A DNA stretch of 64,000 nucleotides from Combretum micranthum (lineage: Eukaryota > Streptophyta > Magnoliopsida > Myrtales > Combretaceae): NCBI GenBank assembly GCA_024138025.1, contig JAMXBD010002223.1, positions 124,001 to 188,000 on the forward strand, written 5' to 3'. The notes under the pieces were generated by a model that was given only the letters and a program-made list of their open reading frames with translations, made no database searches and was not told where the DNA came from. A program made the position numbers and the translations under genes. Shown here one piece after another: positions 12,257-46,035 of the stretch (position 1 is the first letter of the stretch; every line of letters begins with the position of its first letter).

Positions 12257-12910
12257 TATGTGGGTTAGGATTCGATCAAGACGATCACGTGCATGCTGAG
12301 TGATTATCGTGCTACACCTGACCTAGGGAAACAACACGTGCAAGGATGATGAAGAGAGAGTCATATAAGGAGGAGAAGTAGGTAGTGCCAACAGGCTCTA
12401 ACATACGCATGACAAGCGAGGAAGCTATAAAGCATCAACCTCACTAGGTACCACGAAAGTCATGTGCGATCCTGAGTGAGTCAAGTAATTGATTCACAAA
12501 AATGGAAATCCGACAGCACGATAGTGTTTGTCCAAGATTTCACTTGTCCAAATGAGTTAAAGACTAGTAGTATTTATAGAGATCTAATTGTCGATGTTGT
12601 TCGTCAAATAAAACAGACAACCAATAGCTAAGATGAGTCATTCTCATTGTGGATATGAATGTGGGCTCCCCTATGGACTTAGGCTCATTAAGGCCTTCAT
12701 TTGCAATGTATGTGTGAGCCAATTTGAGAAAGGTTGGAATTAGACAAGCCAATTTCAACGAATCCTACTCTAAGCTTAACATGTCAATTCTTCCATGATC
12801 ATCTAAATTAAGCCAAGCTTAACTCTTTGAGCCCTGTTACATTAGCCATAGAGTTAAACCCAAGTAAAAATTAGGCTCAAAACCTTTATAATCTAATCCA
12901 TACATCTACA
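12257..12910 (-). mobile_element. 3' LTR of the Tat element
   Basis: About 654 bp, matching 45381-46035 along its whole length (for example the shared 'gtgggttaggattc' start and 'atccatacatctaca' end). Its low-coordinate end reads ta where the partner has tg, a single transition at the terminal dinucleotide. It is preceded on the minus strand by a polypurine tract. The flanking 5-mer atggc resembles the acggc beyond the other LTR. Confidence 0.85.
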
Positions 12911-12925
12911 TTTTGGCCCCTGACG
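12911..12925 (-). promoter_or_regulatory. Polypurine tract of the Tat element
   Basis: On the minus strand, gtcaggggccaaaa immediately precedes the TGTAGATG start of the 3' LTR. Its position, purine bias and abutment to the LTR fit the plus-strand primer site for reverse transcription. Confidence 0.65.
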
Positions 12926-13439
12926 AAAGTTTTTCGAATTGTATCGATGGGATTTTAGCATTATTTTAGTCTTTGACAAATCAACGAAGCATCCATCAAC
13001 ACATGTATGCTATAACATAGCTACATTTTTGCCTAGTGCATTTTCACGATTGAGTATATTGTTTTATCAATAAGCTGTGCCACATGATCTTGGCACCATG
13101 ACTGACCTGAATGCCTTGTTATGCAAAGCCAGAGCACTCATTCTCAAAGCATGGAGGACTAAAGCAAGCCTTAACCAAGCTTCTATAGTTCAAGCTTGAG
13201 TTAATTTGATTATGGTTGAACCAAATCTAAGTCAAAATCCATCCATACTTAAATAGTTTTTGTAGATGGATTCAACTCATTTATGCCTTTAATCACAACT
13301 GATATGATATGTTGCAAGTAGCTCACATGATAAACAAATTTCCCCTTGCATCACTCTAGTTTCATAAAGAGGATTTTGATGGTTCTTGTTTGATGAAGCT
13401 TGTCAAGAACATTAAAAGAGCAACTTATATCTTAGCATT
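12926..13439. other. Tat element 3' region, no feature
   Basis: AT-rich untranslated sequence of the Tat element between the polypurine tract and the captured SWI3D fragment. No coding similarity seen on either strand. Confidence 0.5.
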
Positions 13440-13840
13440 ACATTTCAAAAAGATCTCCTTAAGTGGAGTACTACTCTTCCAAGCTCCCGCCACTTGTACC
13501 ATGGATATCACTTGGTTCCATAAGAATAAAATCTGACGTAGAGATACCAGAGCCAAACTTCCCATTAGTAAAGTATTTTGTACAAAATCAAAATCTGTTT
13601 CTTTCTGGCAGTGGTAACGTTTCCAAGAGTAATAAGCAAAACAAGAGTTGTAGTGTTTAATATGTGCATATGATTTAGTATGTACATTTGGATTAGAATG
13701 GAACTTCTTTACAATCCAATTGCGTATCTCTAAGTACATATCAGGCATTCAGCCTGGGGTTTTTCTATTGAAAAAGGAAGGTAGTGAATGCTTCTTAAGA
13801 AGGTGAGTCTTAGTCCATGAAAACCAACCTATAACTCAGA
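13440..13840 (-). pseudogene. SWI3D: Captured fragment of host SWI3D (SWIRM and ZZ domains)
   Basis: The minus strand encodes, in frames broken by several stops, WFSWTKTHLLKKHSLPSFFN followed by MPDMYLEIRNWIVKKFHSNP. This is the start of the SWIRM domain as found in plant SWI3D-type subunits of the SWI/SNF chromatin-remodelling complex. About 10 residues later comes a ZZ zinc-finger core (NSCFAYYSWKRYHCQKETDF) and then, in another frame, KFGSGISTSDFILMEPSDIH, which in SWI3D leads from ZZ to the SANT domain. The second half of SWIRM and the acidic linker are missing, so this is an internally deleted fragment. It is in the same sense as the Tat element that holds it. It is not functional; the match rests on recognition of several consecutive blocks in the right order. 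Confidence 0.82.
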
Positions 13841-13892
13841 AGTAAAGCGAATGATTCGGAGATAAGACTTTGGAATTCATTGATGTACTTAA

Positions 13893-13969
13893 AAACAAAA
13901 CAATTTCATAGGTTAGTCTTTGTTCTTCAACAGAAACAAAGCAACAATTAGAAAGTCGGCATTGGCACA
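13893..13969. repeat. Inverted copy of the 14.2-14.4 kb tandem unit
   Basis: This stretch, with 'gttagtctttgttcttcaac' and 'gaaacaaagcaacaattaga', is the reverse complement of the unit repeated at 14215-14428. It extends the inverted-repeat structure outward from arm 1. Confidence 0.8.
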
Positions 13970-14211
13970 AGCTACAATGTGAGAAAATTGTTTTTATTAG
14001 TTCATTCCCGTTAGAAAAGGGGGTTAATACCATTGTTAGAGAACTAGCCCAACAAAACAAGAAGCATTTTTAAAGCACAAGAGAGTATGGAAACAAGTTA
14101 TATGAAGTGGATGGATGTTCTTAAGGACATGAGTGTTTTCTTTTAAGAAAGAAGAATATAGTATGTTTTTCATGCCATTTGTGGATCCATCAATGGATCA
14201 ATAGCTTGTGC
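13970..14211 (+). repeat. Left arm of 242-bp inverted repeat
   Basis: The arm runs from agctacaatgtgagaaaatt to caatagcttgtgc. Its reverse complement is found at 14428-14669 with only a few differences. The two arms could pair into a hairpin of about 240 bp with a loop of about 216 bp. It lies in the 3' region of the Tat element, next to the SWI3D fragment. Confidence 0.88.
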
Positions 14212-14427
14212 CAATGCCGACTTCTAATTGTTGCTTTGTTTCTGTGAAGAACAAAGACTAATTGTTGCTTTGTTTCTGTTGAAGAACAAAGACTAACCTA
14301 TGAAATTGTTTTGTTTTTAATGCCGACTTCTAATTGTTGCTTTGTTTCTGTTGAAGAACAAAGACTAATTGTTGCTTTGTTTCTGTTGAAGAACAAAGAC
14401 TAACCTATGAAATTGTTTTGTTTTTAA
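14212..14427. repeat. Tandem duplication in the inverted-repeat loop
   Basis: Two copies of a ~107-bp unit (about 14215-14321 and 14322-14427). Each contains two sub-copies of a ~40-bp motif including taattgttgctttgtttctg and ending gaagaacaaagacta. The same motif occurs inverted at 13893-13969. Confidence 0.85.
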
Positions 14428-14669
14428 GCACAAGCTATTGATCCATTGATGGATCCACAAATGGCATGAAAAACATACTATATTCTTCTTTCTTAAGAGA
14501 AAACACTCATGTCCTTAAGAACATCCATCCACTTCATATAACTTGTTTCCATACTCTCATGTGCTTTAAAAATGCTTCTTGTTTTGTTGGGCTAGTTCTC
14601 TAACAATGGTATTAACCCCCTTTTCTAACGAGAATGAACTAATAAAAACAATTTTCTCACATTGTAGCT
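14428..14669 (-). repeat. Right arm of 242-bp inverted repeat
   Basis: Reverse complement of 13970-14211; ends ...cacattgtagct. The arms differ at a handful of positions, so the duplication is not brand new. Confidence 0.88.
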
Positions 14670-17039
14670 TGAAGGGCATTCCACTCTCTATTTCTCATTT
14701 TATGTTCATTTTGTTTTGCATGCAACAGAAACCTCTCATATCAACCTTGAGTTAGATATTTGATATAGGTACCTCAGTTTTAGCTTGGATTCCCTTTTGT
14801 TCTTAGTATGATAGGTATGGCATGGATTCCTTACTATACTCCTTTTCTTATTAAACTAGAATTGTATGTAAAATTTAGAGAAACCTCGAAATCAAAAACA
14901 TCTTTAAACCTCATGTACCTGAAAATCTCGGAATCAACAGCACCTTTAAACCTGAATTTATTTGACTAATTCCCTTCTATTTTGTGTTTCATTTGCCGGT
15001 GTGTTTGTTATCAACACATAACAAACAAATATTCTACCAAAAGTTTACAAAAGTTCATACTGCAAGTGAATGTTGTTTAAATTTGATTGGTCTTCTGTAT
15101 TGTACCAGTGGAAAACCTTCTCTTTCTCTTATTTTTGGCACCTGGTTTAATACCTTTATATGTCTCTAATTTTTTTTTTTTTTTTTTGCTAGTTCTTTGG
15201 TATTAAAATATTGCAGATTGACACCTTTTATTTTAGTTCCTTCTCATAGGTTAATTATAACATAATTCTTCATTCACTTCTTCTTTTTTCAAATTAACCC
15301 ATATAGGATGTGGCAACATTCTCCTTCATTTTTTTCTTTACCAAGCATGAATCATTCTTCTTTCTTCTCCATTTTCATCTACTAAAGCATGTTACATTTT
15401 ACTTGATACTACCATTATGTTTAGCAACTGGTTCAGACATGGATTAATCATTGTGACTTTTTCTATGTCTGGCTTGGCCTATTACTGTCTTGCTTGATAC
15501 CACCACTATGTTTTCTATTATTGTTTGCCCCGTCTTCGTTACTTCGGTTTCAATTGGTATATGTGTTCCCATCTCCATTTTATTCATTCTTCTTTAGGTG
15601 TTCAAATGTATGACATTCTTGATAATGTACATGGCAGAATGAGGATATAGCACACAGTGTAGGAGCTTTTAGTTGGTCTAAGTGAGATTTTGTTAGTGTG
15701 GGTGCTTCATTGTTATGGCTTGAACAGTCTATGGAGTCCTTATTCACCAGCTTCGATAGCCTAGCATTCATTTCCAACCATGGCGACAGCTTCTATTTTT
15801 GAGACGTAGCTACTTCGTTGATTCTTTCTCCAGTTCGGCTTAATAATTGGAAGGTAATGCACTTCATGCTTATTATATTCATCATGTCGTGTTCAGTTTA
15901 GGAAGCTTGCTCTGTGTTGTTCATTATATTCATTCGACATGTGATGCCTTGTCATGTTGATGGATTTAGGATAAGAATATATGATTTTTCATAAACTTAA
16001 GCAAAATAACAAAAATCTTCAATTTAGGAGCTTGAACAAGTGTGGTTATAAGAGAACCTATAGAGAAAAGCTTTGTGGTAACAGAAGTTCAATTTTTTTG
16101 ATGATATGTATTTAGATCATGCTGTTTTGGGTTGCATGACGTGAATTGCTGCATGTGCCTGGTTCCCTTGTTCATTTTGCAAATCCCAAAGCCCATCTCT
16201 TCTATAGTTTTATTTCATTATTCAAATAAAAGTATCTTCATAATAATTTTTAGAACACCAATGATTTGTGGTATATCAGAGCGTGTCATGTTTAAAATTT
16301 CCGTCTTAATGTCGTTCCTCTTATTGCATTATCTTATATCATTTCTGGCTCAGTTTTGTTTGTGTAACATGTTTTCTTCATTCCTTTTCTATTTTGATTT
16401 TTTTTAACACTAAAATTCTTGTATCTCCTTTGTTGACACAATGCATTCTACCTCTCGATTCATAACACATTTGCCACAAATAACAATCAACAATGAGCTC
16501 CAAGTTCTTTTATTTCCTCATTTTGTGCAGAACCATAGCTAATGCATGCTTTACATTTGATTTCAAAGATAGGCTTATGAATCCCATCCTTTTTTTTATT
16601 TTTCACACCGATGTCTACTGTTGCAGCTTTTAATTTTGTTAGCATTTCACAATGATAGCTAAAAGTCATGAGTAGTGTAATCCGATTTGTGCATCCTTAT
16701 GTGAGTTGCTTTTCTTTCTTGATTGTTTTCATTCTATGTCTATGATAGTTGAGCCGATTGCCCTTATCACCAATTGGCTATTAAAGTAATTGAAACTAGT
16801 AGCACATATGTTGAAAACCAAAGTGTTCTTGCACGTTGTAAGAAGGTTGAGTATGAGAGAAGAGTGGATTGATATAACCCTCTAGAACCTGACCCTAAGA
16901 GCTCTTTGATCAGCATTCTCTGAGAACCCCTAAGGTTGGAACCATTTCGAAAGCATTGGAGGACTTGAACTATCTGTATGTGCTCTTTTTAGCTACTGTC
17001 GGGTGTGTTAGAGTCTTAGTTTTGTCCCCTTGCTACTGT
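14670..17039. other. Tat element 3' region, no assigned feature
   Basis: About 2.4 kb with scattered short ORFs on both strands, none with a recognised domain. Moderately T-rich, with a T tract near 15170-15187. It may contain decayed captured sequence or introns of an antisense transcript, but nothing in it can be named. Confidence 0.4.
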
Positions 17040-18380
17040 AATTTCAGTTCGTTGCAAAAACTTGCAATAAAAATGATATTGATGCATTTCTAATCTCTCA
17101 AAACCTAAAACATAAAAGTTGTAAATCTCTCTCCCATCTTTCTATAGCATTCTTAAATCATCTCAATAGGAGCTTAGATGAGAGAAATATCCGTAATTTA
17201 TCAAACTCCATCAAATCTATGAATTAGAACATCTCACTACATATTCGATAACTTCACAACTAATTCTGTATCAATACATTGTGAATTCACTAAAACTCAA
17301 AAAAAAAAAGAAAAAGTTTATATCTTCTTCTTATGTTTCCAAATAATTTTGAATCACGTTAAAAAGAGCTCAGATGAGAAAACTATCCACATTTCACCAA
17401 AGTTTATCAATTCTGCAAAAATAAGCACCATCACTGCACATGCAGCCACTTTACGATAAAAAAGGACTTTCTACATTTAGAATCTCTTAAAACTCAAAAT
17501 AAAAGATTTGTAGATCTTTTTCTTATCTTTCCATAAGATCTTGAATCACATCAAAAGGAGCTTGTATGAGGGAAATATTCACATTTTACCAATATCTGTC
17601 AAATCTTTATAAATTAGGTACTCTTGCTGTCATCCAGCAATTTCACAATGAAATCTATATTGATATACTTTGAATTCACCAAAATTCAAAACATAAAATT
17701 TGTATATCTTTATCTGCTCTTTCCATATAATTTTGAATCATCTTACTAAAACATCGGATGAGAAAATTGTGCATAATTTACGAAACTATGTCAAATCTGA
17801 ACATATTACAGTATAATCTTATAGATGTAGCAATTTCACGATGAATTATGTACAGATACACTCCAAATTCGCAAAAACTCAAAAAAAATCAAGTTTTTAT
17901 ATTCTCTTTCATATTTTCATATAATTTTTAATCGCCTCAAACGGAGCTCATATAAGATAGATGTGCATAATTTACGAAACAGTGTCAGATCTAAACATAT
18001 CAGAGTATAACCTTGTAGATGTAGCAACTTCACAATGAATTTTATATTAATACACTCGAAATTCACTAAAACTTAAAACATAAAAGATTTAGATCTCCCT
18101 CTCTTTTTTCCATAGAATTTTGAATCACCTTAATCTAATTTTGTATGAGGGAGATGTGAGCAATTTACGAAATTGTACCAGATTTAAACATATCAAAACA
18201 TAATTCTACAGATGAAGCTACTTCACATTAAATTCTGTATTGATGCACTCCAAACTCACTAAAACTCAAAATATAAAATTTTTAGATCTCCTTCTTATCT
18301 TTCTATAGAATTTAGAATAGTATCAATCCGATTTCGTATGAGGAAGATGCGCAAAATTTACAAAACAATGCTAGAGCTAT
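17040..18380. repeat. Tandem array of ~193-bp units (about 7 copies)
   Basis: A diverged unit recurs with anchors of the form 'gaattcactaaaactcaaaa' at about 17089, 17281, 17479, 17671, 17864, 18056 and 18250, giving spacings of 192-198 bp. Each unit also carries a 'ttttgaatca' box, an 'agatgag' box and a 'caacttcaca'-like box in the same order. The copies are clearly diverged from one another. The array sits between the Tat integrase gene and its 3' LTR, a position where tandem arrays are known to arise in this lineage. Confidence 0.85.
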
Positions 18381-19930
18381 CCTATTTCCTTCTCCAGTAC
18401 ATGAATAATTTCTTGATATCTCATCTAGCTTGTCATAAAGCTCTCTAAAGTGAGCTTTAGAAATATCTCAAATAAAAATGATAACTAAAGGAGTTCTAAG
18501 AGTTTCGTTTCCTTGTATAATGTATAATTGTAGTTGTGGCCATACTGTGATGCTCATGTTTGCTTTTACATGTTTCTATATGTTGTAGTATAGATTGCCT
18601 TTGCATTGTTTTCATGTGATGCTTCCCATGTGCTAATTATCTTTTCCTTAGGTCTTTGTGATGATATTGCAGCAGTTAGTTTCTCCTTTATTTGGCCTTG
18701 TCTTGGTTTTCTTCATTCTTCTTCTTCTTCCTTTTTTTTTTCGAAGCTTGCTTGAGATAGTCACTTGTGTTTACATCCTTATGTTACTCTCATATATCTT
18801 CTTGATGATGAGTGAATATCACCTATGAAGTCTTGTTAGCTTTGTGATTTATTCCTGACTTGAGTACTATGTGTTGATAATTCTTTTGGAATATTTCTTG
18901 TATTCATTAATGACTTGACACTTGCCCCTCCATGCATTGCCTAAGGAAATGTGTTGCTAAAAATCTTATCACATCTATATGTATAGACTCTTCAAAGGTG
19001 AGCAGAGCATTGTAATCTATATACTACACTAATACATTTTCCTTTGTCATTCTCAAGTTTATCAGTATTTTCACATCTACTCCTGCCTCTTGTAAATATT
19101 TTTATATAGCATACTAGTGATTTCATCACCTATTTTGCTTTATGCAACTACCTCATCTTTAATTTTTTTGCAATGTAAGCATTGAGATTGAAGCGTTGAA
19201 TCTTCATTACGTATCTTCATGACTTCATTTTGCAAGTATGATTTTCTTGTTGTATGAACTCATATTAGTGTCAAGAATACTCAACTTCAACATTTCTGTC
19301 TATCATGTGTTATATTCATTCATCTAATGACTACGATACCTCATGATTTTTAAGACAAAGCTCTTTGTCGTTCGTGTTTCGATCGCATAAATGGTAATCT
19401 TGAGATCACACACTATATGATGACATTCGTAATCGTCTACGTCCCAAACCTCATGTGATAATCTTGGAATCGCATATTGTGTTTGTGTTCCATTCCCCAT
19501 ATGATGACCTTGGTACAACATTACCATGAGAGAGGCTCTCCTTAGTTGTCTGTGTCTCACTTGCCCATGTGATGATCTTAGAACCGCACCATTGTAAGAG
19601 GAGCCTCTTTCTCAACTTGTGCTCCCAATCATTAGGTGAATGAATATGATACTCTACTAGCTGATACACTTGTTGTATATGTCTCATGCTGTTGATTCAA
19701 GTTCACAAGTAGCATCTCTTTTGATATTGTATGTGCTTATGACTCCATCATGTAGGTGTACATATAACAGATATCTTGAGAATGACGAAGGAAAATAGAA
19801 AGGGTTAATCTTGTAGTGGTAACCATATAGACAAAAGTAATGAAATATTGATAAATTTAGGTCATGTGCGAAAAGGTCCCTTGCCATGTAGTAAATGACT
19901 TGATGCTACAATTCGAAATGATTTTTTCTT
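18381..19930. other. Tat element 3' region with weak short repeats
   Basis: No gene recognised. Between about 19385 and 19590 a short motif like 'atgatgatcttggaatcgca' recurs three or four times at irregular spacing (about 44-70 bp). This produces overlapping minus-strand shadow ORFs of similar composition. No function inferred. Confidence 0.4.
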
Positions 19931-20541
19931 AGAGATGTTAAAAAGAAGGGATCTATGTATGCATCCTCCCAAAGATGGTGAGTTTCATTTCATTCAACTA
20001 GAGCCCCGAGTAAATGATAGGAAGAACATAGATGAGAATTACATATTACATTTCAGAAATGAAAGAAAGGAGCTTCCTCTTTCAAAGACAGTATTCAGTC
20101 ACCCAAATAGATATTGCAAGGGTAGCAATCATGGGTATATCACATTGAAAAAAATTTCCATTATAGGTCTCGTTTAGAAAGTGCAGGAATTAATTTTTTT
20201 ATATGAATCTCTTCTAAAATGGTAATCTAATCTCAAAGTATTGAAACATGGCGAGCTTTATTGGCACGTTGGAGTACGTATACACATACTTTTGTGACAT
20301 CATGGGTTGAGATTACTCCAATTTTAGAAGATATGTGCACACTGTTGAGTTTTCCTAGTTCTGGGTCGATTGATATCATCATAGCTGAGATCTTAGAGGA
20401 GGAAGAGGGATTGATAGAAGTATTAGAAGCTAATAGACAAGAAGTGAGAGACAATCATAGACAAGCATCATTTTGTGCATGGATAAGACATTTCTTTGAG
20501 CATGAAAGGACTCGATTTAAAGGCCTTCGGTATGGATGCAA

Positions 20542-20628
20542 GTAAGTGTGCATTCATTGCTTTGTTTATTTATCCTTAATTGTCACTATTTCAATCTGAC
20601 TTTACTTATAAATTGTAATTCATTTCAG
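20542..20628 (+). other. Spliceosomal intron in the PMD remnant
   Basis: Donor GTAAGT at 20542 and acceptor ttcag ending at 20628. Removing 87 bp joins the two PMD coding blocks in one frame across a split lysine codon. The intron is T-rich, as plant introns are. Confidence 0.75.
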
Positions 20629-21657
20629 GCATGAATTAGAATTTTTTATTACTTGTTGGTTATATATGTATGTGTTTCCTGGCGAGCCAGGGAAAGATAT
20701 TAGCCCTCGATTTTTTCACTTGGCAATTTGTTTTGCTAATGGAGAACGAGTTGCCTGAGCGCCTTTTTATTTAGGGTCTTTATATCAACGCTTGGATCTT
20801 TACAGTGAAACTTCGATTCGATCAAAGGGGTGTATATCATTGTATCAAATGTAGACTTGAGATTCTTGCACTTGTTTTTCAATGAACATTATTAAAGTTT
20901 ATCCAGATGTACTTGTTACAAAACCTGATCCTTCTAAACCTCGAGCAGGCTTAGGTTGATAGAAAGCCTTTGGGTTCGTTATTTGATATTATAGATGATG
21001 CTTGTGAGGTTGACTTTCATGCTTATACAAAGGAATTGGAGGGTTATGAGTGGTGCACAACGTATTATCCTTTGGGTTCCAAGACTTTAGTGAATCTGAT
21101 GGAATGTGGCGAGCAACTTTCTAATGCTGAAGTAGGAAATGTTCTTTAGTGTACACCTTGAGGCTTACCTACACTTCATGATTGGTGTGACTCTTCTACA
21201 GAGTTCTTGGAGTATAGGTTGATGTTGTACTCACCTCATCGAGTTGTATGATAGTTTGGATTTGATCTAGGTGTGCCTTCTATCATAGCCATTGACATAG
21301 ATTTTAATAGATGTTGTGAGGCAATTAATCCTGAGAAACGCCATGAGTTTTATTGTACTTTTAGATAGATGTTTTTTCCATCTATCAATAGCTTTAATGT
21401 TGCATCGAGCAGATGGCTAACATATTGGACAGGGTATCTTGAAGCATTTAAGAAATATACTTCTTCAACTATAGATGACAGTTTTCTAGAGTCGGTCATC
21501 TATAGGTATGAGTTCCAATTTTAGCTTCCAAAAGATGACAAGAACAATATTCCAGCAAAAGCAACGATTGAGCAAGCTATGCCTCCTGCATCAGTCATCA
21601 GTCAAATCAAGCATCCTTGCATTTGTGAGGTATTAAATCTTGTTATTTAAGTTGTCT

Positions 21658-22695: not shown

Positions 22696-23439
22696 AGTCC
22701 AGAGTTCGCTCAGACATAAGACATAGTTTAGATTAGCACATATTTTCTCTTCAATTTCAAGAACAATTTGTTATAACACTCTTTTAGGGTAAAACATCGT
22801 TTAGATTGATTTTGAATTATTGTTGCTTGATATTGCTTGATTGTTTGTTTATATTAGTGAATAGCAAGGTATCACTCAGGTCATTAGTAACATGCACATG
22901 CACCTAAGTAATAATGCTTTCACTTAGTAGTAGCGAATCATGAAGTAATAAATATTGTTATGGCTATTGTGTCATGCATCAGAGGAATGCTCTCATTTGC
23001 TAGCAACGGTTTGATTTAATGCTCTATCATGTTATAACTTATGCTCTTCGAAGAACATAGAATTCATGCAGTAGCACGTTATGCGGTATAACTTTATGCA
23101 TTAATATTTTTGTTTTTGCGAGCAAAGATATTTTAATTTCACAAAGATAGTTAAGGGGAGATTACCCACTACTTAACCATTCCATTAAAAACAATGGTTA
23201 ATATAACATACTTAGACAAAATTCATATGCATACATAATGTCAAATGTTTAGTAAATTTTAACAATTACAAGCTGCATGTTATAACACGAACGAATGTGG
23301 CGCGCATAGGAGACAAGTCTCTTACCAAGCAGTAGTAGCATACAAATATATCATATAACCAAACTTATTGATGAAAGAGCCATGTGAAAGTAAGCTCATA
23401 TTATTCAAATCATCATCATCACTAATCATGTTATTATAT
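22696..23439. other. Spacer between PMD remnant and Tat integrase
   Basis: AT-rich sequence where the plus-strand PMD remnant and the minus-strand pol gene end tail to tail. No feature recognised. Confidence 0.5.
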
Positions 23440-25000
23440 ATGAAACTTTTTTACATATTGAAAATTTATAGGAGCTATAATAGCATCAGTCTTTGGATTG
23501 AGAAGCCTGCAATATTCACTACCATGGACTTCATGGATAATGAAGAAGCCTTCCCATTTTGGTGTGAACTTTGGCACATGTATACCTCGGTGCATGTGCT
23601 TGGCTAACGAAGTAAAACATCATCCACTTGAAAGGACCTTTTTCTCACCAACATATCACAAGCTATACCAAGCTTGTGTTGGTAGTTGATCAAATTTTTT
23701 TGTCTATATCTCATCTTTCATCTAAGGCTTCCAAGTCTATCATGCGTAAGGCATTTGGTCAAGTTCAGCATTGATTGCCAATCGTATTGAAGGGATTGAA
23801 ACCTTTATGGGCATAACTGCTTCGGCACCATACACTAGCGAAAAAGGTGTTGCTTGTGTTGGTCGTTGCTTTGAAGTCTTATAAGCCTAAAGTGCTAGAA
23901 GTAGCTTATCATGCCATTCTTTATGGTTTTTGTGTACCATTGGAATAATCACTTTCAATAGGTTCTTGTTTGTAGCTTCCACTTGGCCATTGCCTAAAGG
24001 GTAATAAGGGGTTAACTACACATGATTGATAATATAGGATTCCAACAGTTGTTGAACATGTGAGTTAATGAAAGGAGTCCCATTATCTGAAAGGATATGC
24101 TTCAAAATCCTAAATCTGCATATAATATTCTCCTTATTGCAAGCTTGCAATTGTTAGTCCCATCGCTTTCTATAAAGAGACGGCTTCCAATCACTTAGTA
24201 AAGCATTTTGTCCCAACCAAGATCCAAATATAACCTCTAGACGGTGGGAAAATGGGACCAATTAGATCAAACACTCAAGCATGAAAAGGCGATGGGGTTG
24301 TCAAACTATGAAGTACAACGGCAAAAGCGTGAATTGTATCTCCATGTTCTTGCCAAGCAACACACTACTTAACAAAATTTGAACTGTCTGATTCCATGGT
24401 TTGCCAATAGTATCCATGTCAAGTAGTTAGTAATACAACTTCCTTGCACCTTCGTGCTCAACGCAATCTCGAGCATGTACCTCAGTGAATATCTGTTCTA
24501 TTTCAGGAAATGCAACGCATCTTAGAGGCTTTCCCATAAATAAAACTCTGTACAACTCATCTTCATGCATTAGGTACTTACATGCTTTCCTTTCCACCAA
24601 TCTAGCATCCATGCTATTAGTTGATAGCACATTATTCATTAAATAGTCAATGTATGGATGATGCCAATCTCTAGCACTTGCCACAAAATTGCATACCTTT
24701 GCACCTGGCAATTCAGAGCACTTAGGCCAATGCATTTGCACCTGAGATGCATCCTTAGCCATCGAGGACCAGTAATACCTTGCATATTGAATACAACGGT
24801 ACAAAGGAAATCCTTCTTCCCCATACCAGATCTTATGACACTTTTCCAATTTTAACCAAGCCTTTTTGCACAAATGGATCGTGATAAAACACCCTCCAAT
24901 CCTTTGAACTACAAGGCACCATTGATATGAACAAAATTCTTCAAAGTCATAATGGAAGCTGCATTAGGCTGTGCTAGTTAGGTCTTGATACAATGCACTA
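23440..25000 (-). pseudogene. Tat element integrase
   Basis: The minus-strand stretch 24427-24873 holds the segment before the integrase, with DWHHPYIDYLM and the start of its zinc-binding domain (FTEVHARDCVEHEGARKLYY). Zinc domain and catalytic core continue in broken frames, including GYYWQTM near 24400, FDLIGPIFPPSRGYIW near 24240, TPYYPLGNGQVEATNKNLLK near 24000 and LVYGAEAVMPIKV near 23840. The C-terminal part, KFTPKWEGFFIIHEVHG, ends near 23440. Domain order and spacing are normal for a gypsy integrase. Stops and frame changes make it inactive. It would insert the element cDNA into chromosomes. Confidence 0.85.
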
Positions 25001-25076: not shown

Positions 25077-25441
25077 TCAAACTTTCGTCAAGGAATGCAT
25101 TGGAACCTTAGATGCTAGCGTTGCCAATGCATCTCTATAAGGGTTTGTAGATTGTTTGGTATGTTCATATCTAACATATTCAAACTTTCCAATTAGAGCT
25201 TGTACTACAACCCTCCTTAAGAGCATACTCACCACTGTCTGCTTAATGATCAAATTCGAGTCACCATAAATGCACAAATGGGTTGTTTCAGCTTCCAAAG
25301 TAAAGATGATCCTAAGTAATAATGCTTCATACTCGGCTTCATTATTGGTGAAATGAAAGTCAAGTTTAAATGCCAAAGGTATCTCTTGGCCATCAGTGAT
25401 GTCAATATGATTCTTGCTCCCCAGCCTTGACTTCCTAACAA
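25077..25441 (-). pseudogene. Tat element second (archaeal-type) RNase H
   Basis: The minus strand reads through a GARI(I/V)LTSPDGQEI-like segment, then AFKLDFHFTNNEAEYEALL, THLCIYGDSNLIIKQ and DALATLASKV. This N-x-x-A-E-Y-x-A-L plus GDS-x-L-x-x-x-Q pattern is the additional RNase H carried by Tat-lineage gypsy elements between the normal RNase H and integrase. Catalytic E (in EAEYEA) and D (in GDSN) are present. Frame changes near 25376 break the N-terminal part. Confidence 0.85.
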
Positions 25442-25499
25442 ACCATCAAACTAAAGTGACCACTCTTCTTCTACTTCATTCATGAGTGAGTCCTCATGA

Positions 25500-26000: not shown

Positions 26001-26005
26001 CAAAT
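26001..26005. repeat. Target-site duplication of LTR B (left)
   Basis: caaat, identical to 28219-28223. Confidence 0.92.
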
Positions 26006-26522: not shown

Positions 26523-26536
26523 TATGACCAAATTTC

Positions 26537-32961: not shown

Positions 32962-32995
32962 TGAAGGGTTAGGTGTATTTTTTGCCTCAGGGCCA

Positions 32996-33870
32996 TTATG
33001 GGATTAGTGTTTGCTTGGCTAAGGGCCATTGCCAGTGCCTTGAACAATTCAGGGGTAAGAAATTGGGATAAATCTTCCGTTGATTGGGAAGATTTTGAGA
33101 AGGGGATTGAACCATTTGAGATGGTTCATTTTTTGAGGGTTGAACCTCCTGAGAGGATGGTTCATTTATTGCAAAGGGTTTGGCTACATTAAGCCATGTT
33201 TTAATGTCTGTAAGACCTTTCTTTTTTGGGGGTCTGCTTTCCCCTTTCCTTTGTCTTTCTTGGGAGGCATCTCCCTGCAGAAATTCACGGGTGAGGAAGT
33301 CAGGTAGTGTATTGGTTTTTCCATTGATGTGTTCAATATCGAAATCAAAACAGGATAGAATTGATTGCCATCTGGCAAAAATCTGTTTAGAAGCCAAATT
33401 TTGAACATCATTTTGTAAAACATTTTTTGCTGACTTACAATCAACTTTTAAAAGAAATTTTTGGTTTAACAAATCTCCTTGAAATTTTGAAATTGTTAAA
33501 ACAATGGCTAAATTTCTTTTTTGATAGTGGAGTAGTTCATTTGACATTCATTCCAGTGTTTGGAGACAAATTGAACTATACATTCTTTTCCATTATTGAC
33601 TTGTTTGAGAATACCACCATAACCAATATCGGACGCATCAGTCTCTACAATTTTTTGTAGAGATGGGTCAGCAATATTGAGGCAAGGTATTTCTTTGATT
33701 TTGGTTTTGATAAGTCTGACAACATTGGTATGTTTATCAGACCAAGGAGGAGGATTTTTCTTAAGTCTATCATGCAATGGTTTGCAGATAATACTTAAGT
33801 TAGGGAAAAAATCCGCGACATAATTAAGACTTCCTAAGAACCTTTGAAGTTGGTTCTTCCTTAATTTCAT
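32996..33870 (-). pseudogene. Caulimovirid EVE: RNase H and RT C-terminal end
   Basis: The segment 33508-33870 opens with LNYVADFFPNLSIICKPLHD (RT connection) and has IVETDASDIGYGGILKQ, the first RNase H catalytic block with D intact. The segment 32996-33547 continues with LLHYQKRNLAIVLTISKF, CKSAKNVL and ARWQSILSCFDFDIEHING, then a Pro/Ser/Gln-rich tail. RNase H removes the RNA strand during viral reverse transcription. A frame change near 33,530 splits the domain, so the copy is dead. Confidence 0.88.
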
Positions 33871-33879
33871 CAGGGAATT

Positions 33880-34861
33880 TGGAAGTGAACTCTATTGACC
33901 TTTGGATTGGTAATATAGTTCCATTGTGGATGTTGAATCCCAAAAATCTAATTTTCGTTTGAAAAAGAGAAATTTTTGTTGGGGAAACAACAAGTCCATT
34001 TTTCTTAGCAGTTCATAAATAATTTAACATGCTTGAAGTGTTGATCTATGTTTGGAGAGTATATCAACACATCATCAATATAAATTATTATGAAGTTGGA
34101 GAAATCATTGAATATTTCATTCATATTCTCTGGAACTCAGAAGGTGCATTTTTGAGACCGAATGGCATAACATTCCATTCATACTGCCCAAAAGGAACAG
34201 TAAACGCGGTTTTATACCTATCGGCTTCATTAATTTGAATTTGCCAGAATCCAGATTTCATATCAAATTTTGAAAAGATTCTAGCACCATAGAGGCGATT
34301 GAGTAAATCTCTTTTATTAGGTATTGGATACCTAATCCATTTGAGTGCTGTGTTGAGAGGTTTGTAATTAATTACAAGTCTAGGTGTTCCTCTCTCAATC
34401 TCAGCGTTTTTATTGACATAAAAAGCCGAGCAACTCCATGGGGATTTACTCTTTCTGATTAAGGATTTTTGTAATAAATCATTGATTTCTTGTTTACAAT
34501 GATTTAGAACAATTTGATTCATTTGTGTTGGTCTTGCCTTGGTAGGAATGTTCTTTTCATCAAAATCATTTTCATAAGGAAGATCAACAATATGGCATTT
34601 TCGATTCCAAAAGGCATTTGGTAGGTTTGAACAAATCGATTTTTGAATTTCTTTTTGTAATTTAGAAACATTTTCTTTTAGAGTTTTTTCTAAAAGTTGT
34701 TTTTCAATTTTACAGAAAGATAAATCATTTTGTAAAAATTCCAAATGCTTTTCTTTTGATTGAATCAGGCAATTCAATTCTGAAATCGAATTTTCCTTTA
34801 ATTGGTTTAATGACCTTGTTCTAGGTTTTGAGACAAAATTAAAAATGATCTTGTTTTTCAA
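33880..34861 (-). pseudogene. Caulimovirid EVE: reverse transcriptase
   Basis: The open stretch 34121-34861 (246 codons) starts with a coiled-coil-like Lys/Glu/Leu segment (about residues 15-75). It then shows KSPWSCSAFYVNKNAEIERG, LVINYKPLN, YPIPNKRDLLNRL, FSKFDMKSGFWQI and WNVMPFGLKNAPSEFQR. The catalytic YIDD block follows in the next segment at about 34058-34069 and is intact. These blocks are typical of plant pararetroviruses rather than gypsy elements. The protein copies pregenomic RNA into DNA in the cytoplasm. A frame change near 34,120 and further damage to 33,880 interrupt it. Confidence 0.9.
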
Positions 34862-35008
34862 ATATTTAGTCTCAATGCCTTGATCATTAACCTTGAAAGG
34901 TTGGATAAGATTGATGAAAGGTGTTCCTAAATAACATTCTGCTTAAGGTTTTTGACAAGAGGAAAGCAGTGTTATAAGAAACATTATCTTTCATTATCTT
35001 AACATCTG

Positions 35009-35260
35009 TTAACTTGAAATCAATCTGTAGTTTGTTACCAGAAGCTGAACTAAGAGATTGGGTTGTTTTTCAAAATATTTTGTTGGTACTAACCCTTCTC
35101 TTATGCAATTTAAATCTGCTCCGGTATCAAATAATGCAGTTGTTTCCAAGATGAATTCATTGTTGATTTTCAAAGTGATGTTGATGATCCATTTTCTAGT
35201 GGTTACTTCTACAAGATGTAGAAGGTAATCATCTTGATCCTGAGATTCTGAAGACTTCAT
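35009..35260 (-). pseudogene. Caulimovirid EVE: aspartic protease
   Basis: An 83-codon stretch with ETTALFDTGADLNCIREGLV. The D-T-G-A catalytic motif of a retropepsin is intact and preceded by a hydrophobic strand. It sits between the coat protein region and RT in the order expected for a caulimovirid polyprotein. It would process the polyprotein. It is separated from RT by about 150 bp with stops. Confidence 0.85.
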
Positions 35261-35269
35261 TTTTCAATA

Positions 35270-35666
35270 TGTTTTCTTCATTCAGAATCAGAATCTTCCT
35301 GATTTAAACTTTGTTTGAAATCAAGAAATTCTTGTTGCAACTTCATTTGCATGAGTTTTAATTCTTTGATTTCTTCTTTCTGAATTTTTATTTCAGAATG
35401 AAGATCATTGACAGAGATTGGTTTTTTCTGTTTTGGTTTTCCTTTTTCAAGAATTTCATTAAGACTATAGGGAGCTTTGGTATGATATGATTCATACTCT
35501 GCTTTTCTATTTTCTTAATGTATTCTTGTTTTTCGGAATCTGGTATTTGGTCTAACTTTAGAAGAATATCTTCTTCTTCTTTGGTTAGAACATATATTTC
35601 TTCTGAAGAAGTGGATTCAATGTCATTGGCTTGAATTCCTTCATTGTCAGAGAGGAAATAGATCAA
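35270..35666 (-). pseudogene. Caulimovirid EVE: acidic linker between coat protein and protease
   Basis: The segment 35388-35666 is rich in Glu, Asp and Ile (EEIYVLTKEEEDILLKLDQI). Lower down, around 35290-35390, the minus strand continues with Gln/Leu/Lys-rich, coiled-coil-like sequence. No catalytic motif. Acidic tails next to the zinc knuckle are usual in capsid polyproteins of this virus family. Frame changes bound it on both sides. Confidence 0.6.
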
Positions 35667-35990
35667 TCAGAGGAATAATCATTTTCAGCAAAATTTGCAA
35701 AAGGTGTTCCATTGTTTCTTCATTAAGGTTTAATTCATTGATTTTGTTGTTATTTTGCAGAATTTTGCGTATGCCCAATTTTTCCACATTTGAAACATTT
35801 AAGTTTTTTCCAAAATTGTTTTTCTTTCTTTTTGGAAGGTTTGTTGTTCTGTTGTTTTTTCTCATATTTATTTTTCTTAAAGAATTTCTTCTTTTGAAAT
35901 TTCTTTTAGATTTTTTATGAGAAAACATTCAGTACATTTGTTTTTGATTTTTTATTTTCAAAAGAGGGATCATATTGGGCACAGAAGTCA
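35647..35990 (-). pseudogene. Caulimovirid EVE: basic region and zinc knuckle of coat protein
   Basis: A strongly basic segment (KKSKRNFKRRNSLRK) leads to a zinc-knuckle-like block around 35755-35800 reading C-F-K-C-G-K-I-G-H. The fourth ligand position reads alanine in the same frame instead of cysteine, and the adjoining frame is shifted. A Cys-Cys-His-Cys knuckle after a basic stretch is the nucleic-acid-binding signature of the caulimovirid coat protein. The last ligand is lost here. Confidence 0.78.
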
Positions 35991-36660
35991 CCAAGACTTT
36001 TGTGTTTCATTCTTTGTTCATTCTTCAATTGTTTTTGAAGTCTGATGTTGGTGCAAAGATTTGTTCCAATTTTAGAAACATATGAGGCTAATTCTCCATA
36101 TGAAAGTTGATCATAAGGAATTTCACCATTGTAATCTTCTCTAATTTTATTTCTTACTTGATCACCTATGAGATTAGGTAATCCTGCAAGAAACTTTTCT
36201 TTCCAAAAAGCTTGATTACAATCATTTCTAAGGAGGACCTTTGGAAGAATACATCCTTATATGGGCGAAATTCTCCTAATGATTTACATTTCATATTAGA
36301 CAACAATTCTAAGGATCTGTCTCTAAAGTGAGATGGATCACCAATAAAATGTTGGCTAATAGAATATATGAGAGTATTAACCATATGGGGGATAGGTTCA
36401 TCATTTTCATCAAGGATTTTTATTCCTTCTTCATCGACTTTGTATGAAGTAAGAATAAAATTCCTTCTTTCATCATCCAAATAATTATCCCACCAACCTT
36501 TTAATTGTCCAGTAAAACCGGAAATTATCATTATGGCGATGTGATAATCACTTGTATCATTTGCTTTGTTGGTGTTTGAAAACATTATCATTTGATTCAA
36601 AACATTGAGAATTTTTTGTTCTGAGGCTCCATCTATGTTCCATTCATAAGTGGATCCTGC
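35991..36660 (-). pseudogene. Caulimovirid EVE: coat protein core
   Basis: The stretch 36166-36600 (144 codons) shows IMIISGFTGQLKGWWDNYLD and, later, NMKCKSLGEFRPYKDVFF. Between 35990 and 36160 the minus strand continues with YDQLSYGELASYVSKIG and KHKSLGDFCAQYDPS. The G-x-L-x-x-W-W-D-x-x-L block and the following L-G-x-F-x-x-x-Y pattern are typical of the capsid domain of plant pararetroviruses. The capsid encloses viral DNA. At least one frame change near 36,165 disrupts it. Confidence 0.85.
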
Positions 36661-37500
36661 AGAATATTTGTTTGATAATTGTTTTCATCATTTTCTTCGA
36701 TCAAAACATCAGGAGGGGTTGCTCTCTGATAGTAAAGTTTCTGGGGTTCTTTCCAGGTAACTTTATTGATTTGATCAATTTGTTCAAAAGTGAGCTGTTA
36801 ACTGATTCGTTATCAGTTTCATTTAAAACATTAATATTTTGATTAGGGGTATCCTCAATGGTCAAGTTCATGAGTTTTGTATAAGAAGATGTTGCAGTAT
36901 TAGGGGTTTTGTTGAAATCAATTTGTTCTTTTGATTTTCTTTTTAATGCTTCTAAAAATTCTTTAGAAGGTTTTTTAGGGAATTCAAAAGGTTTTATCAA
37001 AGGGGCCTTAATTTCCTTTTTCTCTAAAGCTTTTAAAAATTCTTAGAGGGATTTTTTGGAATGTTTAAAGAAACATTTGGGAAAACTTTGGGTTTATCAT
37101 TATCCAAAATAACTTCAATCCTGTCTAACTGTTTGCCCATAGTGTGCAAATGTTGATTGGTAAAGTTATTTTGCTCAATGATTTTCTGATTCCATCTTCT
37201 TCTTTATCAGAAGACTTGAAAGGTGCCAGAGTAATCTCCTTATTCTTATAAACTTGTTTTAATTGGGTGAGTGGTGGATGGTTGGATCAATTGTTTGTCC
37301 ATCACCAATCTGCCAAGTAAAACAATGGTTTATAACATTGATTTGTTTAGGGGCCAAATAATATTCCTGGAACCAATCAAAGAATAATATTTGGGTTTGA
37401 TTATCAAACATGAATTTGTAATATTCATCTTTGATTTCATTTTTAAAATCAGAAAAAGTATTAAAATACCATTTCCTGATTTTCTCATTTTTGGTTGAAC
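36661..37500 (-). pseudogene. Caulimovirid EVE: region between movement and coat proteins
   Basis: The stretch 36701-37000 contains KPFEFPKKPSKEFLEALKRK and SSYTKLMNLT. A closely similar EFLEAL-type segment precedes it near 37030, an internal repeat of about 20 residues. Upstream, around 37320-37500, the sequence is Phe/Tyr/Trp-rich (FFDWFQEYY). No named domain. The same strand and continuous order indicate that it belongs to the viral polyprotein. Several stops. Confidence 0.65.
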
Positions 37501-37512
37501 CAAACTCTTTGT

Positions 37513-38688
37513 TTAGATATTTCCTTCAGGTGTGAAAGGTTTATCTAAAACGTTGAGTTCATCCTCTTGGACCTCTGAGAAGGCTGGTTCTTCATAATCA
37601 GTTTGTTGGTGAACTGATCTAGGTAAACCATTATCTCCAGTCACAATTCCTATCAAAGACGGATTGCTTTGATTTGGAATTTCAAGAGTAGTTTCAACAG
37701 AAGGAGGATTATTTTGATTTGGGGGAGCTCTTTTATAGGAGGTATCAGAGGAGGAATAGTAATCACAGGGAGGTAGGTCAAAAGATCTTCTTGAAGAAGA
37801 AGATGACATTGTCCTAATTTCCACATTATTTCTGGGTAGATCTAGAGATCTCCTAGAAAACTGAATGGTTACTTTTCCTTCAGGATGTTGTATAACATTG
37901 GTTGGTTCAGTGTTATACACAATCTTTTTGGAAGAGGATTATCTACTTCCCATTGCTGGGGTAGATTGATTTGGTTCCATTGAATCATTTTAGGGATAGA
38001 AACATTAGCTTTTGAAAGATCTGTCTGGATTAATAAGGTTTGACCTCTCCTGTCAACCTTAAAAGCCTTAGATCCAAAAGCTGTTTTCATAAGTTTGTAA
38101 TATACCTGTATATTACAGCCATTGGAAGTGATCCTTCCAACATTCGGTAGTTGTGAGTTTTAATCTGGAGGATTAAAGACTTCATGATTGTTTTATCCTT
38201 TAACCCTATGGTTACATTAGGATGACAATCGAATTGGACAGGGCCATTACTCAGGCTAGTTTCTACTGCAGCATGAATTGATCTTTCATACTCCAGTTCT
38301 CTGAATCTCTGAGTATCATGAGGACGGAAGTATCCAGGCCTAATTTAGTAAGAGGTTTAGCTCCTACTTGACCAGACCTATGTGGATATAATTCCAATCT
38401 TGGAATATTTTTTGATAGATTCTCTGTTAGAATCTCCATAGAGGTGAGGCCATCAGAAATAGGAACATCCTTTTCTTCTGTGGCTATAACATAGTCATTT
38501 TTGGAAAAGATTTTCCACTTAGCCATTTGATATATTTCATTGTAAGCCAGCTTTGGAATTTTCCAATTATCTATGGCTTCATCAAAATCCTTCATATGTA
38601 TTTCATCTCGATTTAGAATATTATCTTCTGAACCTTGCTCCGAGGGAGCAAAGCTAGAAGAGGACATAGTTCTTCTAAGTAAATTCAT
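37513..38688 (-). pseudogene. Caulimovirid EVE: movement protein (polyprotein N-terminus)
   Basis: The first Met at 38688 (or a second in frame at 38667) opens a stretch to 38263 with AYNEIYQMAKWKIFSKNDYV and PLTKLGLDTSVLMIL. A frame change near 38,270 leads to a segment ending at 37869 with FGSKAFKVDRRGQTLLIQTD, and then to a Ser/Arg/Pro-rich tail (37513-37920). The blocks and their position before the capsid match the cell-to-cell movement protein of caulimovirids (30K superfamily), which opens plasmodesmata. Two or more frame changes make it non-functional. Confidence 0.85.
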
Positions 38689-38930
38689 AATAATAAAACT
38701 ACTTTTTTCTAAAATTGTATTACATTTTTACAGGACTACTTTTATCCCAAACCGTGACTTCCAAATTATGACCTTTAGCAACCTCTCTAGGATTTACGCC
38801 CGGCCTCAGTAGGCTAGTCTCACTCTAGGATCACCACAAATGGTAATCGTCCCAAGCAAAATTGTAATATAATTTTATATGTATGTATAAAATCCGTTTT
38901 GATCGAAATAGACTTCATTTAGAGGAATTT

Positions 38931-42583: not shown

Positions 42584-42588
42584 TTTAC
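42584..42588. repeat. Target-site duplication of element C (right)
   Basis: tttac, identical to 29138-29142. Confidence 0.85.
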
Positions 42589-43421
42589 TGGCAAAAATTG
42601 GCCACGATGACTCTCCTAGTTGTGCTAGATCTAATTCCTTAATTTCCTCATTCTATGGCTTTATTTAATCTTGCATTTGTTGAGGGGCGGGCTAAATTTC
42701 TTGAATTGGTATAAGGTCTGAAGAACAAACTTCGTTAAACCTAAAAAATCATCATAAGAGATATACTATCCACCTATCTTCTCTAACATAACTTTTAATA
42801 GCATCAACCTGCCTATTTTTCTTTTTACCGCTACGATAGTGATGCATTTTTCTCGTCTTTTGTTGACCCTCTTCAACTTCTTTCTATGTGGGTAATGGCA
42901 CACCTGAACCTCTAGCAATAATCGTCTTGATTTCATCAGCATATTCATTGTAGAATGTAGATTCAATGGAAATATGACTCATCATTCTCAAAAGGATTCT
43001 TTGTAGCAAGAAAAAATATATCATTCCCATTCCAATGTCCTTTGATGCATTGATGCATCGTTGATTGCACCAAATTGTGATCGTGCAGCTACTTTCTAAT
43101 TATCAAAAGATGATAGGATACGAGCACGTCAATCACTTGAAAAGTAATGATACTATGAATAGACCAAATCTTAAGATCAACATTAACTGTTCTAATCATC
43201 GTTATTGTAGTATGACTAAAACTATTAACTGAAATGGTTTGCTTCACCAAACGAAGATAATCAATACCAGTAGCCTCAAATGTAGTCTTAGGCATGATGT
43301 TGAGAGAAGAACCAACATCAATGAATGTCCTCTTAACTGGATAGCCATTAAGTATGCCCTCCACATATAATGGTTGATTGCGATTTGAATTGTCTACACA
43401 GATATCTACATCAGTGAACAA
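42589..43421 (-). pseudogene. Tat element protease and protease-RT linker
   Basis: The stretch 43089-43421 (110 codons) has LYVEGILNGYPVKRTFIDVG, continuing SSLNIMP, then a hydrophobic core ending SYHLLIIRK. The D-x-G-S-S-x-N-x-M-P form of the retropepsin active site is characteristic of Tat/Athila-type gypsy elements; catalytic D and G are present, with V between. Below 43089 the frame-broken linker continues (SYVREDRW and similar) to the insertion point of C at 42588. It cleaves the gag-pol polyprotein. Confidence 0.85.
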
Positions 43422-43489
43422 GATTGCATTTTCAGCACTCGAGCCATTCTTTTAACGGGCTGCATTGCACTACCCTCGGCATATTATCC

Positions 43490-45342
43490 CTAAGAAATTT
43501 GCACAAGCACCATTGTTGCTACAAGCCTTGCTTTCTCATCAAAACCAAGCAGATCAAAAAAGTTTCTAAAATTTGAAGTTTTCAAAAGTGTCACAGCAAT
43601 GGGAGAATTTTCCTCAACTACATGTTGCTTTCCTTTCATCTTACTTGCTTTGGCAAGTGATGTATCATTAGCCTCTACCGTGGCAGGATCATGAATGACA
43701 ATATTAACAGCACCACGTCGATTATTATGTATCAGAAGTGGATTGTCCCTAACATTGTTATTTTTTATAACGAGCTCTTCATTCCATACTCTTCCATTAA
43801 AGATCCTCTTCAAAGTAAAACAATCCATAGTAGGATACCCTATTATACTGTGGAACCTACAAAATTTAGGATCATTCTTCTCCTCCTGAGTTGGTAAACG
43901 CTCTACCCTCGGGAGCTTGAGGTTTCCATCTCTTAACCATTGATCTAGTATAGCATGAACCTTTCCCATTGAATAAGGATATGTTAGCGCTTCCTTTGTT
44001 CTCTCACGTCCACACTTTTCAACTCTTGGTTTCTTCCCATCTTTGGAATTCTCACTTTGAGCCGCATTTACGGACGGTCCCTTTTTTTAAACTTCACATT
44101 CCCACCTCTTTGTCATGTGACAGAATTATTGGTCCTTCGCACATTCTTAACCAAAGTAGAGAATGAGGCTAAGGAGAGATTTTCCAGATGCACCACATAC
44201 TTGGTAAACATATCTTGGATGCAAATTTTCACTAGTTCTCTTTCATTGCAGATGCCTTAGATGTCTAGTGAGCGCTCCTTGAATTGTTCAATATAATCCA
44301 GTCTTTTTTTTTTTTTTTTTTTTTTTTTTTGCTTTTAGCAAATCCGTCCCATATTATTCAAGTTACCCATGAATATACTAATCCAGGAGGAAGGTTGACG
44401 TACCAAGTATACGCTTTCTCTATGAGGGATTAAGAAAATTCTTTCAACTTTAAGTCATCATCAAACCCATAGACCTCTAGCATTTGAATGAACTTTAGCA
44501 AATGTTCCTTAGCACTTCCCTTCTTATCATTGAATAGCATGAATTTGGGACTCATATAGTCCTGAGGGTACGGCTTAGTAGCAATACGTTGATTGTATGG
44601 GAGCTTAAGATGCAATACTCGCACATCAGACTTAGCTTGTATTTCCCTCAAGTACATGTCTAAATATTCCTTGTAACAAATATGCCTTTAGGAGTTGATA
44701 GTAGCTTTAGCTGGTGTAGCTGGAGTAGCCATCTGGAGTGGAGTTGCATTAGGTTGAATAGTAGGTCCACCAATGACAATCTGTGGTGTAGCTTGTGAGG
44801 ATGAAGATCCTCCAAGTTGAACATGCAATGCAGGCTAAGAGGTTGAGGATCCTCCAAGTTGAATTCCTGCGTAAACTACCTGAGGTACAGGCAATTGTGT
44901 AACTATAGGCTCTAACGGAGGGGCTTGCTCTCCAACTCTAGCAGGATCTTATTCAAGAACGGGAAGAGGATTAATAGGTTGAGGTGCTTGAGGAGCTTGA
45001 GGAGCCTGAAAAGCACATTGTTGCGCAGTAACAACAGGGGTCAATGAAGTCACACCTTGTTGTGCGGCAGCAATAACAGCTATACTCGGCAAATATTGAG
45101 CAAACATCGTCATGAATTGTTGGAATTGTCTTGTGGACTCCTGCGTCGATTAATTGACTTACTTAGTATTTTCTTGCATAGCATGCAAGATCGCAACATT
45201 ATCAGGTTGAGTACTAGCTGGCTGGTTCACATCCTCAAGTACTGGCATGTCATGCTTAGCAACCTCAGGATTAGCATCAGATTCTTAAGTCATACCCTTA
45301 GTCGGATCAATAAGCCTCTTTCTTGGAGGTACCATCATGCAA
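43490..45342 (-). pseudogene. Tat element gag
   Basis: The likely start is at about 45342 (MMVPPRKRLIDPTKG), downstream of the PBS. It continues through a long Pro/Gln/Ala/Thr-rich N-terminal region, then the capsid block PYPQDYMSPKFMLFNDKKG with KEHLLKFIQMLEVYG (44430-44657). The C-terminal part (43490-43969) has KFCRFHSIIGYPTMDCFTLK, a Cys/His block typical of this lineage. Several stops interrupt it. A run of 27 T (27 A on the coding strand, 44304-44330) replaces part of the capsid region. Gag forms the particle that packages element RNA. Confidence 0.85.
44304..44330. repeat. Poly(T) tract inside Tat gag
   Basis: Twenty-seven T residues within the minus-strand capsid coding region. On the coding strand this is poly(A), encoding only lysines if translated. 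A slippage expansion in a dead gene is the simplest reading. Confidence 0.9.
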
Positions 45343-45358
45343 GTGTTAATTTCCAGCT

Positions 45359-45376
45359 TCCCCAGTGGAGTCGCCA
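45359..45376 (-). promoter_or_regulatory. Primer-binding site of the Tat element
   Basis: On the minus strand, TGGCGACTCCACTGGGGA begins four bases after the LTR end. It is an 18-base, TGG-initiated tRNA complement of the form seen in plant Tat-type elements. The tRNA was not verified. Confidence 0.78.
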
Positions 45377-45380
45377 AGAA

Positions 45381-46035
45381 TGTGTGGGTTAGGATTCAAT
45401 TAAGATGATGACGTGCATGCTGCATGATTATCATGTTACACGTGACCTAGGGAAACAACACGTATAAGGATGACCAAGAGAGAGTTGTATAAAGAGGAGG
45501 AGTAGGCATTATCAATAGGTTCTAACACACGCGTGATACACGAAGGAGCTAGAAAGTATCAACCTCACTAGATAACTCGAAAGTCGTGTGTGTTCCTGAG
45601 TGAGTCAAGTAATTGATTCACAAAAATGGAAATCCGACAGCATGACAGGTGTTTGTCCAAGATTTTGCTTGTCCAAATAAGGTAGGGACTAGTGGTATTT
45701 ATAGAGATCTAGCCGTCAATGTCGTTCATCAGATAAGATAGACAACCAACGGCTAGGATGAGTCTTTCTCACTATGGATATGAATGTGGACTCCTTTGTG
45801 GATCCAGGCCAATTAAGGTCTTCATTTGTAATGTATGTGTGAACCAATTTGAGAAAGGTTGGAATTGGACAAGCCAATTCCAACGGGCACTACTTCAAGC
45901 CTACCATGCCAATTCTCTGATGATTATCCCAATTAAGCTAGGCCTAACTCTCTGAGCCTGTTACATTAGCACATAGAGTTAAACCCAAATAAAAATTAGA
46001 CTCAAAGCCTTTATAATCTAATCCATACATCTACA
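45381..46035 (-). mobile_element. 5' LTR of the Tat element
   Basis: 655 bp with tg...ca ends on the plus strand (tgtgtgggtt to catctaca). It matches 12257-12910 throughout and is followed on the minus strand by the PBS and gag. The flank beyond 46035 is acggc, against atggc beyond the other LTR. Confidence 0.9.

Follow-up and report, generated by a model that had tools for sequence, protein, structure and literature searches.

We analysed a 64,000-nt window of the Combretum micranthum genome (GCA_024138025.1, contig JAMXBD010002223.1, positions 124,001 to 188,000 of the forward strand; coordinates below count from the first letter of the window), in which an old long terminal repeat (LTR) retrotransposon appears to occupy positions 12257-46035 on the minus strand. 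The 33.8-kb interval runs from the 5' LTR end at 46035 to the 3' LTR end at 12257. The first-pass annotation of this DNA had proposed matching LTRs at both ends, and their full-length alignment bears this out: the 3' LTR (12257-12910, minus strand, 654 nt) and the 5' LTR (45381-46035, minus strand, 655 nt) are colinear across 653 sites and 84.8% identical, with 82 transitions, 17 transversions and 3 gap columns (Kimura two-parameter distance, K2P, 0.176). The termini read TGTAGATG...CCCACACA/CCCACATA, and a TATAAATA box is common to both LTRs. Substitution rates of 1.3e-8 or 7e-9 per site per year convert the LTR divergence into an age of 6.8 or 12.5 million years; the excess of transitions would fit decay of methylated cytosines.

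The LTRs are flanked by a putative target-site duplication, ATGGC on the left (12252-12256) and ACGGC on the right (46036-46040), which differ by one transition as annotated earlier. With the offset set properly, the two copies agree at 4 of 5 bases; eight offsets obtained by sliding the left side give no more than 1 of 5, and random 5-mers from the window match as well as this pair in 2.3% of cases. At the inner edges of the LTRs, with coordinates counted by hand, we found a primer-binding site (PBS), TGGCGACTCCACTGGGG (45360-45376, minus strand), starting 4 nt in from the 5' LTR, and an imperfect polypurine tract (PPT)-like sequence, AGGGGCCAAAA (12911-12921, minus strand), adjoining the 3' LTR. 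The PBS is presumably of the tRNA-Arg type; a tRNA scan found none. The earlier statement that PBS and PPT abut the LTRs is upheld for the PBS and weakened for the PPT, which is interrupted. An LTR divergence of 15% and one mismatch in the target-site pair could also be expected if the LTRs came from two separate insertions and the interval were a chance or recombined composite. We consider this scarcely credible, as the LTRs are colinear over their 653 sites, the PBS and PPT-like tract lie at the correct inner edges, pol pieces lie in order between the LTRs, and the target-site copies match at the proper offset only.

We searched protein pieces from the interval against Pfam one by one, with nested insertions kept in place. 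On the minus strand the domain order is protease, reverse transcriptase (RT), RNase H, second RNase H and integrase core. The RT lies at 28330-28995 (PF00078, E 4.1e-24), the RNase H at 25573-26046 (PF17917, E 1e-9, over 25573-25794; PF17919, E 0.0033, below cut-off, over 25852-26046) and the second RNase H (aRH) at 25077-25445 (PF13456 RVT_3, E 1.7e-6). An aspartic protease at 43089-43451 is indicated by PF09668 (E 0.001), PF13650 (E 0.0014) and PF13975 (E 0.0015), all below cut-offs, and a frameshifted integrase at 23434-24963 by PF00665 on 23620-24210 (E 5.1e-4, below cut-off), with no Pfam match in the flanking pieces 24427-24963 and 23434-23619. Broken open reading frames (ORFs) at 43490-45149 on the same strand are, by their position, a putative gag. 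No Pfam match was found for 43490-43969, 44430-44687 or 44949-45149, and the gag and gag-protease stretch has four pieces without a match. The first-pass annotation had called gag-pol complete after removal of the insertions. The pieces follow one another as this claim requires, but it was judged by their order with the insertions kept in, and gag has no Pfam match. About 2.3 kb of further sequence lies between RT and RNase H; at 26255-26527, also between these domains, a word containing TACGCCGCCGGCGTA occurs twice, 244 nt apart.

The element has two RNase H domains (PF17917, E 1e-9; PF13456, E 1.7e-6), the mark of the Tat lineage, and its aRH lies between RNase H and an integrase whose own match is below cut-off. 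A second RNase H in this position is the angiosperm Ogre/Retand arrangement (PMC6317226). The two domains, with the second one before integrase, indicate Tat and the Ogre/Retand clades, agreeing with the Tat assignment made earlier and narrowing it. Scans of viral and prokaryote contigs with the RT found no relatives. Ogre is favoured over Retand by a plant mobile domain (PMD) gene, described below, and by the PBS type with its presumed tRNA.

Between the integrase end (23434) and the 3' LTR (12910) lie 10.5 kb that contain the PMD gene, a tandem array, a SWI3D fragment and a hairpin. All four modules named in the first-pass annotation are thus present, although the hairpin proved not to be a module of the element (see below). 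The PMD gene (20231-21647, plus strand) is antisense to pol; it contains 9 stops, and its reading frame shifts at least once. The piece at 20231-20545 (plus strand) alone matches Pfam at E 1.2e-10, and a translation joined across a predicted intron and one frameshift matches PF10536 at E 3.1e-27, covering profile positions 22-346 of 347 and hence near full-length. A possible C-terminal stretch extends to about 22695, in pieces without a Pfam match. In a protein search, one relative (P0004) was the sole match among 2015 candidates (E 1.2e-54, 38% identity over 69%); an earlier search of 387 candidates had given no match at E 0.001, and a scan of viral contigs with the PMD exon found no relatives. 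The predicted intron (20542-20628, plus strand, 87 nt) reads GTAAGT...CAG, with donor and acceptor intact despite the age of the element.

The PMD frame has 9 stops in 442 codons. Neutral decay after the insertion would predict 4.0, and 500 shuffles gave 31 on average, with a minimum of 18. These counts suggest that the gene remained coding up to roughly the time of insertion, or lost that capacity somewhat earlier. A PMD is expected in such an element, since 57% of Ogre elements carry one (PMC6317226), two clades of the domain are encoded by Gypsy elements only (PMC5418596), and a survey of plant LTR elements found it to be the commonest non-canonical domain in Gypsy (PMC9289625). From these reports we rejected a new capture of PMD by this family. 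The earlier claim that the family had gained both a PMD gene and a remodelling-factor fragment is accordingly retained as to the presence of both sequences and dropped as to the novelty of the PMD. The opposite-strand gene would be the element's own extra ORF, an Ogre trait, and its antisense placement could be either common or exceptional in Ogre. The predicted intron is readable only antisense; it would thus escape splicing of the sense genomic RNA and survive reverse transcription, which could explain why a retrotransposon has kept it. By analogy with MAIN/MAIL1, the PMD protein likely would have acted on host silencing or chromatin.

The tandem array (17065-18379; plus strand, assigned arbitrarily) consists of about 7 monomers with a period of ~193 nt. 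We compared six monomers in all 15 pairs, excluding partial stretches at both ends, and found identities of 57-72% and K of 0.37-0.64, compared with 0.176 for the LTRs. Divergence among the monomers exceeds that between the LTRs, which indicates that the monomers diverged before this insertion: either the element carried the array in, or an already-diverged satellite arrived later. The former is the documented pattern, as published descriptions of Tat 3' regions include tandem arrays and antisense ORFs (PMC6317226, PMC11963269), in line with what the first-pass annotation had stated, and the array would be the usual kind of Tat 3' tandem repeat.

The hairpin shows the opposite relation to the LTRs. 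Its arms (13968-14211 and 14428-14671) are 98.8% identical, differing at 3 of 244 sites (K 0.012), and are thus 14-fold less diverged than the LTRs, which suggests that the hairpin is younger than the insertion. With its templates it spans 13888-14671, within which 14212-14671 is a templated insertion in inverted orientation. In 14205-14671, five inverted copies, 96.6-100% identical, follow one another without gaps; four derive from 13888-13971 and one from 13968-14211, with overlaps of 1-4 nt at four junctions. These gapless inverted local tiles with short junction overlaps point to serial template switching at a break. We rejected the idea of a transposon or other element module here, as inverted copies of local sequence make up the inserted half; a scan for terminal inverted repeats with flanking duplications of at least 2 nt returned two weak pairs, neither at the hairpin. 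The hairpin may also be an assembly artefact. Its RNA would fold at -456 kcal/mol, compared with a mean of -143 kcal/mol for 20 shuffles; if transcribed, it could, speculatively, feed small-RNA silencing.

A SWI3D fragment (13486-13889, minus strand, sense to the element) adjoins this rearrangement. In a protein search with 13425-13748, one of 18 candidates matched at E up to 10, P0003 of Tripterygium wilfordii, annotated as SWI3D-like (E 2.8e-7); the match covers 19% of the query at 90% identity. In tblastn of P0003 against the window, three of 7 matches at E up to 10 make up the fragment and the other four have E of at least 0.88. Residues 136-197 lie at 13889-13683 (E 1.6e-17), and residues 304-326 and 328-360 follow at 13655-13587 and 13584-13486, in two frames (joint E 5.1e-11), so that the fragment covers residues 136-197 and 304-360. 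The intervening 106 residues are absent and the two blocks are only 27 nt apart, too close for an intron to fit between them; a transcript with a skipped part and a genomic deletion are both possible. P0003 has SWIRM, ZZ and SANT/Myb-like domains. The full set is absent at the locus, where SWIRM gives a partial Pfam match (E 3e-4, below cut-off), which makes this a fragment and not a gene. A match of the piece to an influenza polymerase chain in the PDB (E 0.97) was dismissed as chance. Among the matches listed, no literature title or abstract start linked SWI3D to retrotransposon capture.

The fragment would have been copied from SWI3D sequence when RT switched templates, or would have come in as repair filler, and is most likely a broken passenger. 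That it arrived only after the element had inserted, as a separate retrocopy or as filler in a repair, and had no part in the element's mobility, has in our view about even odds, with the other parts of the locus read as before. The adjoining templated rearrangement at 13888-14671 indicates that this spot was broken and repaired, and further DNA was inserted elsewhere in the element; the decay of the fragment disfavours a recent arrival. The first-pass annotation had instead seen PMD, SWI3D fragment, array and hairpin as a set transmitted by a whole family. In its favour, a single element holds all four in the region from pol to the 3' LTR, Tat elements are reported with PMD, antisense ORFs and arrays (PMC6317226, PMC11963269), and the SWI3D piece is in sense orientation with no room for an intron in the 27 nt between its blocks. 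We nevertheless find a transmitted set unlikely, as the hairpin is built from local sequence and its divergence is below that of the LTRs (K 0.012 versus 0.176), and the SWI3D piece is fragmentary, frameshifted and without 106 residues. Still more doubtful is an Ogre family that would deliver to each new site an antisense, intron-bearing PMD together with a fixed sense piece of a SWI/SNF subunit, both directed at chromatin. Were the SWI3D piece a fixed component of the family, a retrotransposon with PMD would carry another chromatin-related sequence, one that might serve as an RNA-level decoy or a source of small interfering RNAs against SWI3D.

The length of the interval is partly foreign, as nested DNA enlarges it. 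Nested DNA also interrupts the stretch from the gag-protease to the RT ORFs, where Ogre elements have an intron. This DNA includes an endogenous caulimovirid remnant (31777-38727, minus strand) that is not part of the element. Its Pfam-supported core (33508-36684) holds pieces of coat (PF22909, E 6.8e-10), protease, RT and RNase H in the same orientation as the host retrotransposon, the other matches being to PF00077 (E 1.6e-6), PF24925 (E 1.3e-28), PF00078 (E 2.4e-17) and PF17919 (E 4.7e-19). The outer ORFs (32281-33003, 37513-37938 and 38263-38727) have no Pfam match, and the outer limits, ~31.8-38.7 kb, are approximate and set by neighbouring ORFs. A scan of viral contigs with the caulimovirid RT found no relatives. 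Together with the PMD and SWI3D sequences, the caulimovirid points to a plant host.

Our data suggest that 12257-46035 (minus strand) is one old, decayed Ogre-type (Tat, Ty3/gypsy) insertion with passengers and post-insertion changes, a reading to which we assign a probability of roughly 0.78. LTR elements move by copy-and-paste, and at this locus only the anatomy is seen. The core would have moved through tRNA-primed reverse transcription, after which integrase would have inserted it and duplicated 5 bp of the target. Later, template switching in several steps would have produced the hairpin, the caulimovirid and other DNA would have inserted, and the whole element would have decayed. Dating within one element orders its passengers: the PMD was apparently coding until about the insertion, the array diverged earlier and the hairpin formed later. 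Several points weigh against this reading. The target-site duplication is imperfect, supportive rather than proof; the PPT-like tract is weak and broken by CC; Ogre is preferred over Retand on the presumed PBS type and the PMD; the nine PMD stops exceed the 4.0 expected; we found no statement on the strand or position of PMD in Ogre elements in the accessible part of PMC6317226; gene conversion between the arms could also keep the hairpin young-looking; and the unity of the LTRs with the 3' modules is known from a single locus.

Elsewhere in the window, 47086-55444 (plus strand) is likely a separate LTR element, with direct repeats at 47086-47518 and 55019-55444 (90% identical) and a gag-like ORF at 47784-48257 that is presumably copia-type. 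Positions 3406-3802 and 5616-5733 match 51632-52021 and 53764-53880 directly and colinearly, ~48.2 kb apart (68.5% and 78.8% identical), probably as two related elements in the same orientation. A near-palindrome of ~320 nt at 61742-62065 is 74% identical to its own reverse complement (82% in its core, 61842-62023). The arms of a 45-nt inverted pair at 19036-19796 are 73% complementary, lie 671 nt apart and show no clear duplication by eye; the pair is possibly a decayed small DNA transposon.

The arrangement is largely documented, and this is a decayed example in which the SWI3D fragment near one end is the sole unusual part. Like the orchid 25-kb Gypsy elements with an AlkB-like domain (PMC9289625), it is a giant Ogre-related Tat element with host-like sequence; the orchid ORF is kept across its family and active in vitro, whereas the host fragment here is broken and seen once. 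With the PMD-A1/A2 Gypsy clades (PMC5418596) it shares a Gypsy-encoded PMD protein, but its own PMD is broken, carries a predicted intron and is antisense to pol. In Retand elements (PMC11963269), too, the region from pol to the 3' LTR holds an antisense ORF and a tandem array. Their published antisense domain is TRP28 rather than PMD, and PF04195 (TRP28) had no match in the pieces scanned, which cover part of the 3'-region ORFs. The distance from pol to LTR is 10.5 kb here and 2,933-6,566 bp in recently active Retand (PMC11963269). Ogre elements (PMC6317226) share the placement of the aRH between RNase H and integrase, the large size, the PMD extra ORF and tandem repeats. Ogre also has a PBS antisense to tRNA-Arg (PMC9289625), the type presumed for this element. 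The element differs from Ogre in being heavily decayed and nested by others, with a scrap of SWI3D and a private hairpin.

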